DNA of 64,000 bases, taken from Clostridium massiliamazoniense (GTDB taxonomy: Bacteria; Bacillota; Clostridia; Clostridiales; Clostridiaceae). Both the position numbers and the translations under genes were made by a program. Each line of letters starts with the position of its first letter. Within the stretch, counting starts at the first letter, position 1. Shown here piece by piece: positions 16,726-61,512 of the stretch. Location: assembly GCF_001403635.1 (NCBI RefSeq), contig NZ_LN879468.1, forward strand, positions 1,945,501-2,009,500, written 5' to 3'. A model generated the notes under the pieces. The model had not been told where the DNA came from. It searched no databases and saw only the letters and a list, made by a program, of their open reading frames with translations.

Positions 16726-17238
16726 TTAGTGCCAGTGGTTTGTTAACATTAAGAATCCTGGTATCCAAGCTGTTACGATACCCTCGAATACTCCTAACCA
16801 ACCAACGAATGAGCCAAGGTTTTTCTTAGCAACACATTCAACCCATCCAGTGAACCATAGAACTCCCCATAACCACCAGATAACTGCCATTTTCCAACCA
16901 TGACCACCGTCCCAGCATAATATACCAGCTGGAATTGAGTTAACAGCAACGAATAAGCTATACCAACCATATGGTCTTGTATCTAAATCAAATATTCCAT
17001 TGATACCTACATAAAGGTATGTGAAACCAAATAGTAATCCAGTAGCTGATGAATAGTAACTTGAAATTCCGCCACCTGAATATAAAGCGTATCCTGCAGT
17101 AATAAAGTTTAAGAATAGTGAAAGTCCACCATTAAATAAGTTCATGACAGCAGCTGATTTTGAATCTACTTTTTGTAATCTGCTGACACCGTTACTGAAA
17201 AGTGTAATCCCTACGTATAGTAAAGCTTCTCCTAACAT
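16726..17238 (-). CDS. ureI: UreI/AmiS-family urea channel
   Basis: A 170-residue inner-membrane urea channel that would feed external urea to cytoplasmic urease. It follows H. pylori UreI closely: MLGEALLYVGITLFSNGV, SAAVMNLFNGGLS, GLLFGFTYLYVGI, RPYGWYSLFVAVNSIPA, WLWGVLWFTGWVE and AWIPGFLMLTNHWH at the end. Six membrane segments are expected. Both extracellular loops are much shorter than in H. pylori (SGGGISSYYSS and CWDGGHGWK) and have only one histidine, so acid gating as in H. pylori is doubtful. It is separated from ureD by 304 bases and starts inside a hairpin (17236-17263). Confidence 0.93.
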   Translation of the reverse strand: MLGEALLYVGITLFSNGVSRLQKVDSKSAAVMNLFNGGLSLFLNFITAGYALYSGGGISSYYSSATGLLFGFTYLYVGINGIFDLDTRPYGWYSLFVAVNSIPAGILCWDGGHGWKMAVIWWLWGVLWFTGWVECVAKKNLGSFVGWLGVFEGIVTAWIPGFLMLTNHWH

Positions 17239-17263
17239 ATTAAAACCTCCTCGTTTTAATATG
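17236..17263 (-). promoter_or_regulatory. Hairpin sequestering the ureI start codon
   Basis: On the mRNA, CATATTAAAAC / GTTTTAATATG form a perfect 11-bp stem whose 6-base loop is GAGGAG. The loop is the Shine-Dalgarno sequence and the ATG of ureI ends the 3' arm. Translation would need the AU-rich stem to open, as in RNA thermometers and other start-site switches. The structure is read directly; regulation is inference. Confidence 0.75.
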
Positions 17264-17542
17264 ACTACCTAAAATACTAATATCACATTAGTTATATTTA
17301 TCTTTTGTGTATAAAATTTAGTTATAATTTCCATAAAGTTTTATCATCTACGGTTTATGTAGCTCTTATATAAGATAAGTTGATTAAGGATCTTATATAA
17401 ATCGATATTATCTTCTATAGCTAATCTGAATCTCAGCAAATTAATTGCAGTCATATTTTTCATTTGTATTTTTATTTATCTAATATAACTATATTGAAAA
17501 AATATGGTTATAAATTAGCTAGTCTTATGTAAATATCAATTA
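17264..17542 (-). other. ureD-ureI intergenic leader with hairpins
   Basis: No gene. On the minus strand it holds an 11-bp stem-loop (TTATATAAGAT / ATCTTATATAA, 17366-17400, loop 13) without a T-run, and a smaller one (ACTAAT-atcac-ATTAGT, 17276-17292). These may separate ureI expression from ureGD or process the transcript. I see no clear promoter. Confidence 0.5.
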
Positions 17543-18388
17543 TTAATATTTACGTATATTTATTGGACCTAGTCCAAATAACTTTTCTCTTAAGTGATAA
17601 TGTACTTCATCTATAGCTTTTTGAATTTCTTGAGTTAAATTTCCTAAAACTCTTATTATAAATCCATTAGATTCTAAAGAAGATACTCCAAATTTAACAT
17701 CTAGTTCTAAAGCATTAATAAGTTCTCTTGCTTTTTCAACATCTTCTTCTGTTATTCTACTATCAACAACAACCATTGTTCCAAAGTTAACGTATCCTTC
17801 TAGTAATCCTAGTTCAGTTACATCATACTCCCTTGGATTTAATTGTAAGTTATCAAGTAAAAGAAGTTTATTATCTACATATATTTTATTTCTCATTCTA
17901 ACGGCCTCATATTGGAATTTAGCTCCATCTGGTGACCATCCTGATGTTATTCCATCAGTGTATATTAAAGTTGAGTTTTTATCCATATAGATTGTTGTAT
18001 CTTGGTTATAAACAGCATTTTTATAAAGAATAACACTATCTGAAATATACTCTAAAACTGAATTTTCTTCCATTTTTATAGTAGTTTGTTGATATGATGC
18101 TTCTTTATTTTTTTCACATTTATAAACCTTTGTAGGCGCTTGAGTAGTTATTATTACTTTAGCATCTTTTTTTAATGTGATTGAGTTTTTATAAACTTCA
18201 CCTTCAACATATCCACCACCTAGGTGTAATAAGAAATAACATGGTGTTTTTTCTCTTCCTAGATATATAGCTGGAGATATTTTAGAAGCTCCTACAAATT
18301 GACTTGTAGTTGCAACTGTTCCATTAGGTAAGTTCTCTAAAACAAGCTCAGTATCACCTGCTATTTTACTTTTCATATCATTAATCAT
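17543..18388 (-). CDS. ureD: Urease accessory protein UreD (UreH)
   Basis: A 281-residue urease maturation scaffold that binds apo-urease first and recruits UreF and UreG for nickel insertion. Family features seen: the PLHLGGGY-like strand here reading LLHLGGGYVEGE, ITTQAPTKVYKC, then LEYISDSVILYKNA and ITSGWSPDGAKF (family SGR-like turn). It starts one base after the ureG stop, with GAGGGAA as ribosome site inside ureG. The order G-D without F before it is unusual. Only this copy exists in the window, so it must serve both structural clusters if both are made. Confidence 0.93.
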   Translation of the reverse strand: MINDMKSKIAGDTELVLENLPNGTVATTSQFVGASKISPAIYLGREKTPCYFLLHLGGGYVEGEVYKNSITLKKDAKVIITTQAPTKVYKCEKNKEASYQQTTIKMEENSVLEYISDSVILYKNAVYNQDTTIYMDKNSTLIYTDGITSGWSPDGAKFQYEAVRMRNKIYVDNKLLLLDNLQLNPREYDVTELGLLEGYVNFGTMVVVDSRITEEDVEKARELINALELDVKFGVSSLESNGFIIRVLGNLTQEIQKAIDEVHYHLREKLFGLGPINIRKY

Positions 18389-18389
18389 C

Positions 18390-19001
18390 TTATGAAATTC
18401 CCTCTAATAAACATTTTTCTTTTATCCATTTTATAACAGAGTTTATTCCTTCATCTGTTTTAAGGTTAGTGAATATAAATTCTTTTTGTCCTCTAAATGT
18501 TAAAGTATCTTGTTTCATAACTTCTAAGTTTGCTCCAACATATGGTGCTAAATCTATTTTGTTTATTATGAATAAATCACTTTTGATCATTCCTTGACCT
18601 GCTTTTCTAGGTATTTTTTCACCTTGAGCAACGTCTATTATGTATATTGAGAAATCAACTAAATCTGGACTGAATGTAGCAGCTAAGTTATCTCCACCAC
18701 TTTCTACAAATATGATATCTAAGTTATCAAATTTATGTTTTAATTCCTCTACAGCAGCAAAGTTCATTGAAGCATCTTCTCTGATTGCTGTGTGTGGACA
18801 TCCACCAGTTTCAACTCCAACTATTCTGTCTTCATCTAAAACTGAGTTTTTAACCATGAATTTAGCATCTTCTTTTGTATAAATATCATTTGTTATTACT
18901 GCAAGTTCATAATCACTTGCCATTTGTCTTGTTAATCTTTCTATTAAAAGAGTTTTACCTGCTCCAACAGGTCCTCCAACACCAATTACTACTGGTCTCA
19001 T
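18390..19001 (-). CDS. ureG: Urease accessory GTPase UreG
   Basis: A 203-residue SIMIBI-class GTPase that drives nickel insertion into urease. P-loop [11 protein letters not shown] near residues 7-17, EDAKFMV switch region, the nickel-binding CPH motif in [31 protein letters not shown], and NKID for guanine specificity. ATG at 19001 ([10 protein letters not shown]) has GGAGGT about 8 bases ahead; an upstream ATG at 19016 overlaps that site and was rejected. It follows ureE after a 119-base gap holding a strong hairpin, where ureF is expected in the common ureABCEFGD order. Confidence 0.96.
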
Positions 19002-19046
19002 AACAAGTACCTCCATATTTAAAAAATATTTTGCTGATTTATGTAA

Positions 19047-19086
19047 GTTTATCTTGAGAGGGAGAGCCCCTCTCTTTTAGATAAAC
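19047..19086 (-). repeat. Strong stem-loop between ureE and ureG
   Basis: GTTTATCT / AGATAAAC (8 bp) outside and GAGAGGG / CCCTCTC (7 bp) inside, separated by a small internal loop. GC-rich for this genome and without a T-run on the minus strand, so more likely a processing or stabilising element than a terminator. It lies where ureF would usually be. Confidence 0.7.
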
Positions 19087-19120
19087 CACAAGATTTTAAA
19101 ATAAGTCATTTTAGAATTAA

Positions 19121-19615
19121 TTAATGTATATGTCCAGTATCAATATTTCTAAAAGGCTTATCTAAGCTCACCTTTTCTTTTGAATATTCTATATTGCTTG
19201 CTTTCAATATTTCTTCTATTCTACTATCACATTGTAATAACATCTTTCCATGCTTAAATTGAGCAGGTAAATGTCTATTTCCAAGTGAATGAGCTACTTG
19301 ACCCATTTCTATCATACTCTTAGGCTCAATAACTAAAACTTCATCAGTTGCTATAGTTACTACAACTATATTATGCCCATCTTTTAGAATAATATCACCA
19401 TCTTTTAATATTTTTCCTTCGATAGAAATTTCATATTCATGATTATGGTCAGAAACAACCTTTAAACCGTTGCATTCCATTGGTTTATCAAGGACTACAG
19501 TTTCAATATGATATTGATTTATATCATCATGGTGATGATGATGCTCTACTTCATCATGGTGATGATTTATACTATTTAATTCTTTTATATTTCCAAATAA
19601 CTTATTTAAAACCAT
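19121..19615 (-). CDS. ureE: Urease accessory protein UreE (copy 2)
   Basis: A 164-residue nickel chaperone, paralogue of the copy at 2312-2803. The core from about residue 36 is nearly the same (IETVVLDKPMECN, then LGNRHLPAQFKHGKMLLQCD). The N-terminal histidine-rich stretch differs: HHHDEVEHHHHHDD (about residues 18-31) against HHHDHRDHHNHGD in copy 1. Such stretches bind several nickel ions. GGAGG lies before the ATG. It follows ureC by 25 bases. The C-terminus ends DTGHIH, which may hold a further metal-binding site. Confidence 0.95.
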   Translation of the reverse strand: MVLNKLFGNIKELNSINHHHDEVEHHHHHDDINQYHIETVVLDKPMECNGLKVVSDHNHEYEISIEGKILKDGDIILKDGHNIVVVTIATDEVLVIEPKSMIEMGQVAHSLGNRHLPAQFKHGKMLLQCDSRIEEILKASNIEYSKEKVSLDKPFRNIDTGHIH

Positions 19616-19640
19616 TTATATTCCTCCAAATACTTATCGA

Positions 19641-21356
19641 TTAGAATAAGAAGTATCTTTGAGCCATTGGTAAAACTTCAGCTGGTTCACAGTCTATAAG
19701 TTTTCCATCAACTGTAACATCGTAAGTTTGTGGATCTACTTCTAATTCAGGCATTTGATCGTTAAGTTTCATGTCTTTCTTAGTTAAGTTTCTGATTCCT
19801 CTTACTGGAAGAACTATTCTCTCTAATCCTAATTGTCCTTTTATGTCATGGTCGTAAGCATATTGTGATACGAATGTAGCACAAGTTGTTCCGATAGCTT
19901 TACCATAAGCACCGTACATATTTCTTAATAATTCTGGTTGACAAGTTGGTATTGAAGCGTTAGCTTCTCCCATAACTGAAAGGTTAATCATACCACCTTT
20001 GATTACTATCTTAGGTTTAACACCGAAGAATGCTGGATCCCAAACTACTAAGTCAGCCATTTTACCAACTTCAACTGATCCTATGAATTCTGATACACCG
20101 TGAGCGATAGCTGGGTTGATTGTGTACTTAGCAACATATCTCTTGATTCTGTTGTTATCGTTGTACTCTGAGTCACCTTCCATGATTCCTCTTTGTTCTT
20201 TCATTTTTCCAGCTGTTTGCCATGTTCTAGCTATAACTTCTCCGATTCTTCCCATAGCCATTGTATCTGAACTCATGATACTGAATACACCCATGTCGTG
20301 AAGAATATCTTCAGCAGCGATAGTTTGTTTTCTTATTCTTGAGTCAGCGAATGCTATATCTTCTGGAACTTTAGCATCTAAGTGGTGACAAACCATAAGC
20401 ATATCTAAGTGCTCAGCTATTGTATTAACTGTATATGGTTTTGTTGGGTTTGTTGATGCTGGTAATACGTTTAAGTGTGAAGCCATTTTTAAGATATCAG
20501 GTGCGTGTCCACCACCAGCTCCTTCTGTATGGAATGTATGAATAACTCTTCCTTTAATAGCTTCTATTGTATTTTCAACGAATCCACCTTCGTTTAATGT
20601 ATCTGTATGGATTGCAACTTGAACATCATATTCGTCAGCAGCAGCTAATGAATAATCTATAGCTGATCTAGTAGCACCCCAGTCTTCGTGAATTTTTAAT
20701 CCACAAGCACCAGCTCTGATTTGCTCAGCGTTAACTTCTACGTTAGCTCCGCTACCTTTTCCTAAGATACCAACGTTTACTGGAAGTCCTTCGAATGCTT
20801 CTAACATTCTATGTATGTTCCATTCACCTGGAGTACAAGTTGTTGCGTTAGTACCATCGTTAGGACCAGTACCTCCACCTATAACAGTTGTGATACCACC
20901 GTGTAATGCAACTTCTGCTAAATCTGGGCTGATAAAGTGAACGTGTGTATCAATACCACCAGCAGTTACTATGCATCCTTCTCCTGCTAAAGCTTCTGTA
21001 CTAACACCAACTATAAAGTCAACGTTATCCATTCCGTGTGGGTTACCACCTTTACCGATAGCAGCTATTTTTCCGTCTTTTATACCGATATCAGCTTTGT
21101 AAATTCCAGTGTAGTCTACTATAGTAGCTCCTGTGATTATTAAGTCAACTACTTTAGGGTTCTTTCTAGTTTCGATTGAGTTTTGACCCATACCGTCTCT
21201 TAAAGATTTACCACCACCGAATTTACATTCGTCTCCGTAAACTGTTAAGTCTTTTTCTATTTTTAAGAATAAACCTGTATCTGCAAGTCTTATACTATCT
21301 CCTGCAGTAGGTCCAAATAAATCTGAATAATGTTTTCTATCTATTTCAAAGCTCAT
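19641..21356 (-). CDS. ureC: Urease subunit alpha, catalytic (copy 2)
   Basis: A 571-residue catalytic urease subunit with all active-site residues: H138/H140, K221 and H223 (GLKIHEDWG), H250, H276, C323-H324 and D364. It overlaps the ureB stop by one base, so the two are coupled. Codon use is enriched in C-ending codons (AAC, ATC, CAC) compared with neighbours, as in highly expressed genes, and copy 1 shares this. Copy 2 retains the more usual residues at sites where copy 1 has cysteine (G190, and G in TAGKMK), so copy 2 looks like the more conserved version. Confidence 0.98.
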
Positions 21357-21679
21357 TACTTTCTACCTCCTTCATCTAGGAATCCATCTACTTGATTGTT
21401 TAATCCGTATACTCTTCTTACTCCAGCGATGTCTATTAATTTAACTATTTTCTCATCACCTGGCTCGAATCTTACAGCTGTTCCAGCTGGTATATCTAAT
21501 CTCTTACCAAAAGCTGCTTCTCTATCAAATTGTAAAGCTTTGTTTACTTCTGGGAAGTGGAAATGTGATCCTACTTGAACTGGTCTATCTCCTGTGTTAG
21601 TAACTTTAAGCTCGATTGCTTCTCTACCTGCATTGTATTGTATTGCTTCTTCTGCTAATTTGTATTCTCCTGGTATCAT
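21356..21679 (-). CDS. ureB: Urease subunit beta (copy 2)
   Basis: A 107-residue urease beta subunit: [20 protein letters not shown], the VGSHFHF strand and the [11 protein letters not shown] loop. GGAGG precedes the ATG, 16 bases after ureA. The TAATG overlap with ureC keeps subunits in step. Differences from copy 1 cluster on surface positions (AEE/SQK, Q/D at residue 50, KL/HL). Confidence 0.97.
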
Positions 21680-21695
21680 AATTCAAACCTCCTTA

Positions 21696-21998
21696 TTATT
21701 GAATAGGGTCATGAACAGTTACAAGTTTAGTACCATCTGGGAAAGTACATTCAACTTGAATTGCATGAATCATTTCTGGAATTCCTTCCATAACTTCATC
21801 TCTTTTTAAGATTTTTCTGCATTCATCCATTAATTGTTCAACTCTTTTACCTTCTCTAGCACCTTCCATTATTGCATCTGTAATAAGTGCTACTGATTCA
21901 GGGTAGTTTAATTTGATTCCTTTAGCTAATCTTCTTCTAGCAACATCAGCTGCTACAACTATCATTAGCTTTTCTTGTTCTTTCATTGATAATCTCAT
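21696..21998 (-). CDS. ureA: Urease subunit gamma (copy 2)
   Basis: A complete 100-residue UreA, first gene of the operon. It starts [20 protein letters not shown], has the [14 protein letters not shown] motif and ends HDPIQ. AGGAGG lies 7 bases before ATG at 21998. A candidate sigma-A-type promoter and two palindromes lie upstream (22032-22129). Downstream order is B, C, E, G, D. Confidence 0.97.
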
Positions 21999-25573: not shown

Positions 25574-27439
25574 TTAAAATTCAATATCTTTTATAACTTC
25601 TCCTAATAATTTAACCATACTCTTGTCCATCTCTTTTGAATAATATTCAAAAACTTCTGGTCTATTTAAGAAAGGTGATAATACACAAGATCTTAATACT
25701 ACTACATTGTGAACTCTTTCCCATTCTGATTCTGGCATTCCACATCTTAATACTAAATCTTTTGGTGCATCTCCATAGTCAGCATGATTAAATTCAGTAT
25801 GTGATATCATTAAATCACTTTTATATGGTTCATCTGAAGCTCTAACTTTTTTATTATAAAATTCTTCTGTTAATTTATTTAATACATCAAGATTTTTATT
25901 TCCTTTAAAGTTAACAATAAAATCAACCATATTGAAATCAGGTTCAGTTAAAGTATGAAGCTCTATGATTTTATCTCCAACTTTATATTCTTTAATTTCT
26001 TTTATTTTTCTATATAAATTATGAGAACCTTCTATACTTGCTCCTAATAACTTACCGTAACCTGTTATATTAAGAGGTAGTGTTCTATGTGCTGCCCAAA
26101 CTGCAGCTGCAGCTGCTCCTGGCTTTGAACCAGCTAAAATAAATGCTCCTAATAATTCTGGTGCTGCATTTGTTTTTGGGAATACATAACTTGCATAATA
26201 AGAAACTATATTTCTCATTCTTTTATCTTTGATTACTATACCACCTGCTTGATATGGAACATAACCCATTTTATGAGGGTCCATTGTAATACTATCAGCT
26301 TCTGATAAAGCTTTAAATCCTTCATAAACTTCATCATTAGGCCAATAGAAATTAGGATTTTTAAATACTCCATGTTTTATAAATTCATCATGTAATTTAT
26401 CTTTTGGTATGAAATTAAAGTTTTCATCTAAGAAGATAGCTCTTCCATATCCACCATAAGCTGCATCTATATGATAATAGAAGTTAATACCTTTCTTAGA
26501 ATATTCTTTTTTCATTTCAATCACTTTATGAACTCTATCTATAGCTCCTTCTTCAGTTGTACCAATGACTGATATAACTGCCATTATAGGTATATGTTGT
26601 TCTACTAATTTATCTATTTCAGCTTTTAATATATCTGTATCCATTCTATAATTATTATCTACTGGGATTGATATTATATTATCTGAACCAACACCTATTA
26701 AATCAGTTGCCTTAATCCATGAGTAGTGTTTAGTTTGAGGTACTATAATCTTACCTAATTTACCCATTTTATCATGTTTAGCTCTAATTGAATGATTTTT
26801 TATCTCATCCATTTTATCCATATGTCTATCTAATATATCTAACATTTCTGGAAGAGACATATTTAAAAGTTCCCATTCGGATCTTCCTTCAACTTCTTCT
26901 GGTATAACTTCTTTAATAGCTAATGGAATTGATTTAACATTTCTTGCATACCATAAAGCTTCATAGTTAGCTATAGAACCATCTGCAGAAATATGTCCCC
27001 AACTTTCTCCTATTTTATATCCCATTAATCTACACATGTCATCTCCAACTTCAGCCTCTAAATCTGAAGTAGCTGGACCTGCTTCATAAGCAACATTATT
27101 TCCGTTATATAATGTTGCTGCAAAGTATCCTAATAATGAAGGCATTAATGTTTCTGAACACATATGTCCTATATATCTTGGTGAATGCCAAGGCATCATT
27201 TTACTTCTTAATCTTGATGAAAGTTCATCTAAAGTATTTTCTAATCTTTCAACACTTTCTTTATACTCAGTAGATTCTTTATCTCTTAATGTTATAACTT
27301 TTCCATCCTCTGGATGATAATTTTTTCTCCATTCAGCATGATCATCAAACATTCTTAAAAGATTACTTTTAAATAACTCTTTATTTTCTGATTTTGGCCC
27401 TATAAACATAGCCTCTAAGCTTACATCTTGTTTGCTCAT
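25574..27439 (-). CDS. Tyrosine-decarboxylase-like PLP-dependent group II decarboxylase
   Basis: A 621-residue PLP enzyme, the length of Enterococcus tyrosine decarboxylase (about 620) rather than of glutamate decarboxylase GadB (about 466). Shared landmarks: HMCSETLMPSLLGY, NGNNVAYEAGPATSDLEAEVG, GHISADGSIANYEALWYARN, HIDAAYGGYGRAIF, and the PLP lysine in DPHKMGYVPYQAGG. It consumes a cytoplasmic proton per amino acid decarboxylated. TTAGGAGTG lies before ATG at 27439 (MSKQDVSLEAMF); a 13-residue upstream extension lacks a ribosome site. It diverges from a GadC-like antiporter gene at 28247. Tyrosine is the best substrate guess; a related aromatic or acidic amino acid is possible. Confidence 0.85.
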   Translation of the reverse strand: MSKQDVSLEAMFIGPKSENKELFKSNLLRMFDDHAEWRKNYHPEDGKVITLRDKESTEYKESVERLENTLDELSSRLRSKMMPWHSPRYIGHMCSETLMPSLLGYFAATLYNGNNVAYEAGPATSDLEAEVGDDMCRLMGYKIGESWGHISADGSIANYEALWYARNVKSIPLAIKEVIPEEVEGRSEWELLNMSLPEMLDILDRHMDKMDEIKNHSIRAKHDKMGKLGKIIVPQTKHYSWIKATDLIGVGSDNIISIPVDNNYRMDTDILKAEIDKLVEQHIPIMAVISVIGTTEEGAIDRVHKVIEMKKEYSKKGINFYYHIDAAYGGYGRAIFLDENFNFIPKDKLHDEFIKHGVFKNPNFYWPNDEVYEGFKALSEADSITMDPHKMGYVPYQAGGIVIKDKRMRNIVSYYASYVFPKTNAAPELLGAFILAGSKPGAAAAAVWAAHRTLPLNITGYGKLLGASIEGSHNLYRKIKEIKEYKVGDKIIELHTLTEPDFNMVDFIVNFKGNKNLDVLNKLTEEFYNKKVRASDEPYKSDLMISHTEFNHADYGDAPKDLVLRCGMPESEWERVHNVVVLRSCVLSPFLNRPEVFEYYSKEMDKSMVKLLGEVIKDIEF

Positions 27440-60411: not shown

Positions 60412-61512
60412 ATGAAATTCACATGTGAAAAAAGTAAATTACAAGAAGCTATAGCTATAGCTCAAAAAGCAATAACTGGTAAAAGTACTATGCCTATTTT
60501 AGAAGGTATGTACATAGAGTGTAAAAACAATTTAATTACATTTATCGGTTCTGATAAAGACGTTAGTATCGAAACAAAAATTGAAGCTAATGTTATTGAA
60601 CAAGGTGCAATAGTTGTTGATGCTAAAATCTTAGGAGAAATAGTAAGAAAATTACCTAATGATGAAGTTCACATAACAACAAAAGAAAATAACATAATAG
60701 AAATTCAGTGTAAAAAATCAGTTTTTGATTTAATCCACATGAATGCAGAAGATTTCCCAAGCTTACCAAACATAAGTGAAGACATGAACTGTTCAATACC
60801 TCAAGGATTATTAAAAAATATGATTAAAGGAACAGCCTTTGCAACAGCTCAAGATGAAACTAGACCAATACTTCAAGGTATTCTTTTTGAAGTTAAAGAT
60901 TCAAACCTTAATTTAGTTGCTCTTGATGGATATAGATTAGCTTTAAGAAGAGAATTCATAGATAATCCAAATAATATCAGTGCTGTAATACCAGGAAAAA
61001 CTTTCAATGAGGTATCAAAAATACTAGATGATTCAAACAATATAGTAAATATTACCTTTACAAGCAATCATATTTTATTCAATGTTGGTAATACTAAAAT
61101 AATATCAAGACTATTAGAGGGTGAATTTATAAGCTACAGTTCTTTATTACCAAAAGAACATAAAATACTTATTGATGTAAATAGACAAGAATTACAAAAT
61201 GGTATTGAAAGAGCATCTTTAATGGCTAAGGACGGAAATACTAATTTGGTTAAGTTTAACATATCAAATGATATTATAGTTATAACTTCTAATTCTCAAT
61301 TGGGAAAAGTAAGGGAAGAAGTGGAAATGGAAATGCAAGGAGAAGAATTGCAAATTGCATTTAACTCAAAATATCTTTTAGATGTCTTGAAAAATATGGA
61401 AGAAGAAAATATCCAAATTAAATTAACTAGTGGAGTTTCACCATGTATAATAAAAAATAAAAACAATGATGACTGTGAATATTTAGTATTACCAGTTAGA
61501 ATGGCTAAGTAA
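60412..61512 (+). CDS. dnaN: DNA polymerase III sliding clamp (beta subunit)
   Basis: A 366-residue ring-forming clamp. MKFTCEKSKLQEAIAIAQKAI, three repeated clamp domains, PILQGILFEVKDSNLNLVALDGYRLALR in domain II and the C-terminal YLVLPVRMAK forming the protein-binding pocket. AAGGAGG precedes the ATG. It follows the downstream origin array. Confidence 0.97.
   Translation: MKFTCEKSKLQEAIAIAQKAITGKSTMPILEGMYIECKNNLITFIGSDKDVSIETKIEANVIEQGAIVVDAKILGEIVRKLPNDEVHITTKENNIIEIQCKKSVFDLIHMNAEDFPSLPNISEDMNCSIPQGLLKNMIKGTAFATAQDETRPILQGILFEVKDSNLNLVALDGYRLALRREFIDNPNNISAVIPGKTFNEVSKILDDSNNIVNITFTSNHILFNVGNTKIISRLLEGEFISYSSLLPKEHKILIDVNRQELQNGIERASLMAKDGNTNLVKFNISNDIIVITSNSQLGKVREEVEMEMQGEELQIAFNSKYLLDVLKNMEEENIQIKLTSGVSPCIIKNKNNDDCEYLVLPVRMAK

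Follow-up and report, generated by a model that had tools for sequence, protein, structure and literature searches.

The start codon of ureI lies in a perfect 11-bp hairpin at 17236–17263 on the minus strand of the window, the stretch of 64,000 nucleotides that was analyzed. The gene (16726–17238, minus strand) codes for a urea channel of the AmiS/UreI family (Pfam AmiS_UreI match, 4e-57), and its start agrees with the start position in most relatives. Read on the minus strand from 17263 to 17236, the site is CATATTAAAAC-GAGGAG-GTTTTAATATG and ends in the ureI ATG. The 5′ arm occupies 17263–17253, the GAGGAG loop 17252–17247, and the 3′ arm 17246–17236; the ATG (17236–17238) is paired to a CAT (17263–17261) at the base of the stem.

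The sequence, coordinates, and pairing of this start-site hairpin are confirmed: the 11 perfect Watson-Crick pairs and the ATG/CAT pairing of the original prediction were seen in the sequence, and the coordinates agree. Two details had to be corrected. The stem was said to hold one G-C pair, but two were counted (C17263-G17236 and C17253-G17246). The loop was said to be exactly the ribosome site, but the Shine–Dalgarno sequence (SD) AGGAGGU, at 17251–17245 on the minus strand, reaches from the loop, which holds five of its bases, two bases into the stem. The spacing from GGAGG to the ATG is 7 nt. As for the interpretation, the masked start codon with the SD in the loop is confirmed, and the thermometer is not supported.

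We file the structure as a predicted start-site hairpin, which is a known kind, and claim no regulation by it. Our preferred explanation, held tentatively and with somewhat less than even confidence, is a lineage-specific hairpin that may damp ureI translation by a fixed amount.

Predicted folding and the cost of opening the start

Folded in isolation, the hairpin has a predicted energy of −9.7 kcal/mol at 37°C, and none of 200 shuffled sequences was as good. In longer contexts the whole fold is unremarkable (85 nt: z −1.8, 11 of 200 shuffles as good; 141 nt: z −1.5, 15 of 200 shuffles as good). Within an 80-nt context, the predicted mean pairing of the ureI ATG is 0.98. Opening of the start codon is predicted to cost 4.2 kcal/mol, the highest value among the 47 scored starts of the window (median 0.9), which supports attenuation. 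Among the 72 distinct ureI leaders compared, two exceed this cost; they are taken from other genomes, a set made up of 51 ureI loci and 26 places in 19 of the 206 family genomes, partly overlapping. Against attenuation, the predicted opening of the region from −15 to +3 (10.6 kcal/mol) ranks only third among the 47 starts, and five of the 72 leaders are as high or higher.

In the attenuation that we propose, the 30S subunit would pair with the SD displayed in the loop, would extend this pairing two bases into the stem, and would then open the AU-rich stem at a cost to reach the ATG. Opening by the ribosome, which formed part of the original prediction, is plausible. The SD and the anti-SD 9-mer are predicted to form a duplex of eight pairs (−12.3 kcal/mol) that could pay for opening the stem of −9.7 kcal/mol. 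Because the opening would have a cost, less channel should be made per mRNA than from an open start. The expected effect is a fixed damping, or possibly none, and would not require a sensor.

In the excerpt available of PMC3858243, docking before unfolding is described for structured mRNAs of E. coli, S1 is given as not essential in B. subtilis, and most mRNAs of B. subtilis are said to carry a strong SD. The E. coli rpsO mRNA, as presented in that excerpt, is like the proposed ureI case in that its folded site first receives the ribosome and is unfolded only afterwards; it is a pseudoknot recognized by S15 and needs S1, whereas ureI has a simple hairpin with a strong SD (PMC3858243). If it attenuates, the ureI hairpin would set how much urea channel is made per mRNA in a urease-bearing bacterium, and it would offer a clean natural test of ribosomes opening a stem from an SD displayed in its loop.

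A different hairpin is predicted at the ureI start of two species, in the family genomes G002 and G003 (L205 and L204). Their leader carries CTCTATAAAATAATTTATATTTTATAGGAGG, which is predicted to pair the SD with an upstream CTCT. Like the hairpin of the window, it is AT-rich and located at the ribosome site of ureI; it pairs the SD and leaves the ATG outside the helix, whereas the window hairpin pairs the ATG. The sequence is identical in both genomes despite differing intergenic DNA around it, and each carries it as a single copy; within three mismatches, it is absent from the remaining 204 genomes of the family. The UreI proteins of G002 and G003 are 91% identical, and the aligned stretch is 81% identical overall. 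This second hairpin supports attenuation and makes start-site structure as a theme on ureI a little more believable, although it could be a DNA site instead.

Relatives, chance, and a possibly neutral palindrome

None of the 72 distinct leaders has the hairpin of the window. The original prediction had looked to compensatory base changes in related leaders, and with the stem absent from 72 of 72 there was no covariation to count; it had also named related ureI leaders lacking the stem as a finding that would refute it, and this is what the comparison gave. Within this set the hairpin is not a conserved cis-regulatory RNA whose structure is kept through compensatory changes. With loops of up to 12 nt, arms over the start in the 72 leaders reach 6 bp at most, and arms whose loop contains the SD reach 7 bp at most. 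Of the nearest partial cases, the one in Sarcina ventriculi (L034/L055) has seven AU pairs around the SD, a predicted energy of −1.1 kcal/mol, and an end one base before the ATG; the other (L073) has six pairs. Three of 59 mapped loci (L009, L036, and L092) have ureI immediately behind ureD in the same orientation, and the hairpin is absent from the leaders of these as well (the last compared as L061, the gene of G007).

The 28-bp site has no copy within three mismatches in any of the 206 family genomes. The exact 28-mer was not found in viral contigs, and a search of phages for other copies gave no match. How far this absence reaches depends on the distance of the relatives. The best UreI match among the genomes compared is 67% identical; for comparison, the DNA of the gene at 60412–61512, presumably dnaN, is 84% identical at best (G004), 76%–81% identical to six other searched members of the genus of G001, and 74% identical to that of G003, which is outside this set. 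The window therefore probably comes from a further species of that group. Since the best UreI relative is only 67% identical, the absence of the hairpin shows lineage restriction and not absence of function; a function gained recently in this lineage would be compatible with it.

That the palindrome is neutral is a serious possibility, almost as likely as attenuation. It would be an AT-rich perfect inverted repeat that arose by chance or by a template-switch mutation and has little effect because the strong SD would let the ribosome open it. The absence from all leaders and family genomes described above favors this explanation and counts against attenuation. We estimated chance with a strict rule: a perfect stem, a loop of 3–12 nt holding the SD, and a 3′ arm reaching the start codon. 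For this and the other counts of scored starts, a script chose the gene starts by an open frame of at least 300 nt with an SD core upstream, and not from annotation. In the window, the ureI arm has 11 bp, and the other 46 scored starts have 5 bp at most. Elsewhere, 1845 starts were scored, drawn from the 51 ureI loci and from two relatives, G004 (1.2 Mb) and G001 (0.8 Mb); 16 of them reach 7 bp, four reach 8, two reach 9, and none reaches 10. The loci were joined end to end in the scripts. A few of the 1845 starts were counted twice because of an overlap between L034 and the stretch of G001. That the ureI arm exceeds all of these starts is a point for attenuation.

The decay of the arm-length counts, when extrapolated, gives a probability of about 2.5e-4 per start for an arm of at least 11 bp. 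Scaled up, this is about 0.01 (1%) for the 47 window starts and about 0.5 such sites per genome of some 1900 starts. The original prediction had, besides, picked its site from among many places. The first value speaks against a neutral palindrome, as does the arm that ends exactly with the ATG and places the SD in the loop. The second speaks for it and against attenuation: with about one such site expected per two genomes, a chance origin is plausible. At present, the hairpin is one site in one lineage, near the chance yield of a genome.

A looser rule allowed loops of up to 30 nt and either arm on the start codon. Other starts of the window reach 8 and 7 bp under this rule, and perfect stems of 10–12 bp were found at four of 1308 starts in G004 and G001. 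Because such stems occur in relatives, masked starts are rare and not unique, which again favors a neutral origin over attenuation.

Irrespective of starts, 14 perfect inverted repeats of the window have arms of at least 11 bp and loops of 3–12 nt, whereas 20 shuffles gave 0.8 on average; by their position, we take many of the others to be terminators or replication-origin repeats. One perfect 11-bp inverted repeat, at 27089–27119, lies inside a gene that looks like a glutamate decarboxylase, an identity we assume. In G001 (C3, near 197568), the gene of a small protein that by eye resembles a zinc ribbon has a start region (−50 to +20) with a folding energy of −17.9 kcal/mol, so its start is more strongly structured than that of ureI.

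The upstream leader and less likely explanations

The gap between ureD and ureI (17239–17542, minus strand, 304 bases) would serve as the leader if transcription reads through. It gave only short, weak family matches: at E ≤ 0.001 it matched 82 of the 206 genomes, but no match among the places listed exceeded 48.2 bits or 87 bases, and these matches probably reflect composition noise. Apart from the hairpin, the gap shows no unusual degree of structure (z −1.3). It contains a second perfect 11-bp inverted repeat with a 13-nt loop (17366–17400, minus strand). A search of 1.1 kb on both strands for a promoter of ureI's own gave one site, against 7.5 expected. A 39-codon open frame (17344–17463, minus strand) was also seen in the gap, with no SD by eye; its 39-residue product matched no Pfam family, and its best match in seven genomes had an E value of 0.16.

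One segment of the leader (17447–17457, minus strand) could form nine perfect pairs (AGTCATATT) with 17258–17268, a weak complement that could free the ATG. In a 367-nt model, which takes in the entire gap and continues 60 bases past the ATG, this segment competes for the 5′ arm: the AUG-closing pair drops to a probability of 0.11 at 37°C, against the mean of 0.98 for the start codon in the 80-nt model, and the five inner pairs of the stem stay at 0.85–0.87. This competing pairing in the longest leader modeled weighs against attenuation; with an RNA that starts far upstream, the hairpin might not lock the start codon in the first place. When the RNA starts at 17420 or later, the lowest stem-pair probability is at least 0.69, and in a 310-nt model that ends three bases after the ATG the lowest-energy fold retains the whole hairpin. 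Shuffled leaders have a complement of at least nine pairs in 10% of 300 cases, and in 11% of 150 the competition is as strong. We treat strand exchange by 17447–17457 as a lead only.

These observations bear on a riboregulator of the toehold-switch type, in which 17447–17457 or an RNA acting in trans would pair with the 5′ arm and its flank and free the ATG. The complement and the low closing-pair probability of the 367-nt model agree with it, as does a topology in which the loop displays the SD and the hairpin contains the start codon; the frequency of equal complements and competition among shuffles, and the intact hairpin in the 310-nt fold, argue against it, and we consider it unlikely. 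In the excerpt available of PMC7247568, synthetic toehold switches have the ribosome binding site in a loop and the start codon in a bulge. The ureI site resembles these designs in that the loop carries the ribosome site, the hairpin includes the start codon, and the RNA upstream is single-stranded (PMC7247568). Unlike them, it has all three ATG bases paired, at the stem base, and not bulged, its SD enters the stem, its trigger is only hypothetical, and its loop has 6 nt, compared with 11–12 nt in two design series of that excerpt (PMC7247568).

Less probable again is a true natural counterpart of these switches, with a segment about 190 nt upstream, or an RNA in trans, that would invade the 5′ arm and release the ATG; synthesis of the UreI channel would then depend on the state of the ureD–ureI leader. 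In titles and the openings of abstracts, with subscription journals mostly uncovered, we found no literature on a ureI start hairpin or on a natural toehold of this topology. PMC6733600 reportedly deals with metastable structures of a toxin mRNA from Helicobacter pylori.

It is also improbable, a little more so than a riboregulator in general, that the 28-bp palindrome works as DNA, bound by a putative repressor with the RNA hairpin as a by-product. The site is symmetric and AT-rich, and another palindrome occurs at the ureI start of G002 and G003, as would suit an operator. Few other matches were found in the window, however, with no second palindrome among them: allowing one mismatch, the arm matches at eight places where 5.5 are expected, and two of the eight belong to the hairpin itself; allowing three mismatches, the half-site has two, one its own, against 0.4 expected. 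The lack of a copy in the 206 genomes likewise speaks against an operator, and the palindrome overlaps the SD and not a recognized promoter.

The original prediction also proposed that the stem might respond to temperature, ionic strength, or pH, and we find an RNA thermometer or pH switch hardly credible. The ureI gene is tied to acid stress, and its AU-rich stem covers the start codon, a placement shared with ROSE, fourU, and similar thermometers, which are AU-rich hairpins at a translation start. Those thermometers pair the SD and melt at physiological temperature, whereas five of the seven SD bases of ureI are in the loop. The thermometer reading fails on the predicted energies, which keep the stem closed at 45°C: whether 28 or 85 nt are modeled, the probabilities of the outer, middle, and inner pairs all stay at or above 0.91, and no melting is predicted within the organism's temperature range. 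The hairpin energy comes near zero (about −0.5 kcal/mol) only around 70°C. Watson-Crick pairs are not titrated near neutral pH, and a search of Rfam matched no known thermometer family.

The urease genes around ureI

The gene order of the cluster is ureA, B, C, E, G, D, I, and ureD (17543–18388, minus strand) is the upstream neighbor of ureI. The window has two urease clusters (3–2803 and 16726–21998), in opposite orientation and about 14 kb apart. Between them, UreC is 94% and UreB 84% identical, and the genes of the first (254–2803) stop at ureE. No ureF is present: in the second cluster, about 104 bases (19017–19120) separate ureE from the ureG that comes next, and this spacer holds a hairpin-like repeat by eye. 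A UreF query gave no credible match within the 64-kb window. Five of seven genomes of the genus carry ureI, and all five also have UreF; the ureF of the present genome may lie elsewhere in it.

The Rfam model 5′ ureB sRNA matched antisense to both ureC genes (730–1024 and 20912–21205), which may merely reflect conserved coding sequence. The record titled Sarcina ventriculi NCTC12966 (L086, L087, and G001) was seen to have two urease clusters and three ureI genes; the excerpt available of PMC7859188 describes S. ventriculi as being without urease genes, unlike Ca. S. troglodytae. A plasmid search with the urease cluster as query returned 41 records. Among the 20 listed, identity was 64%–70%, and most matches lay in urease genes wherever annotation exists.
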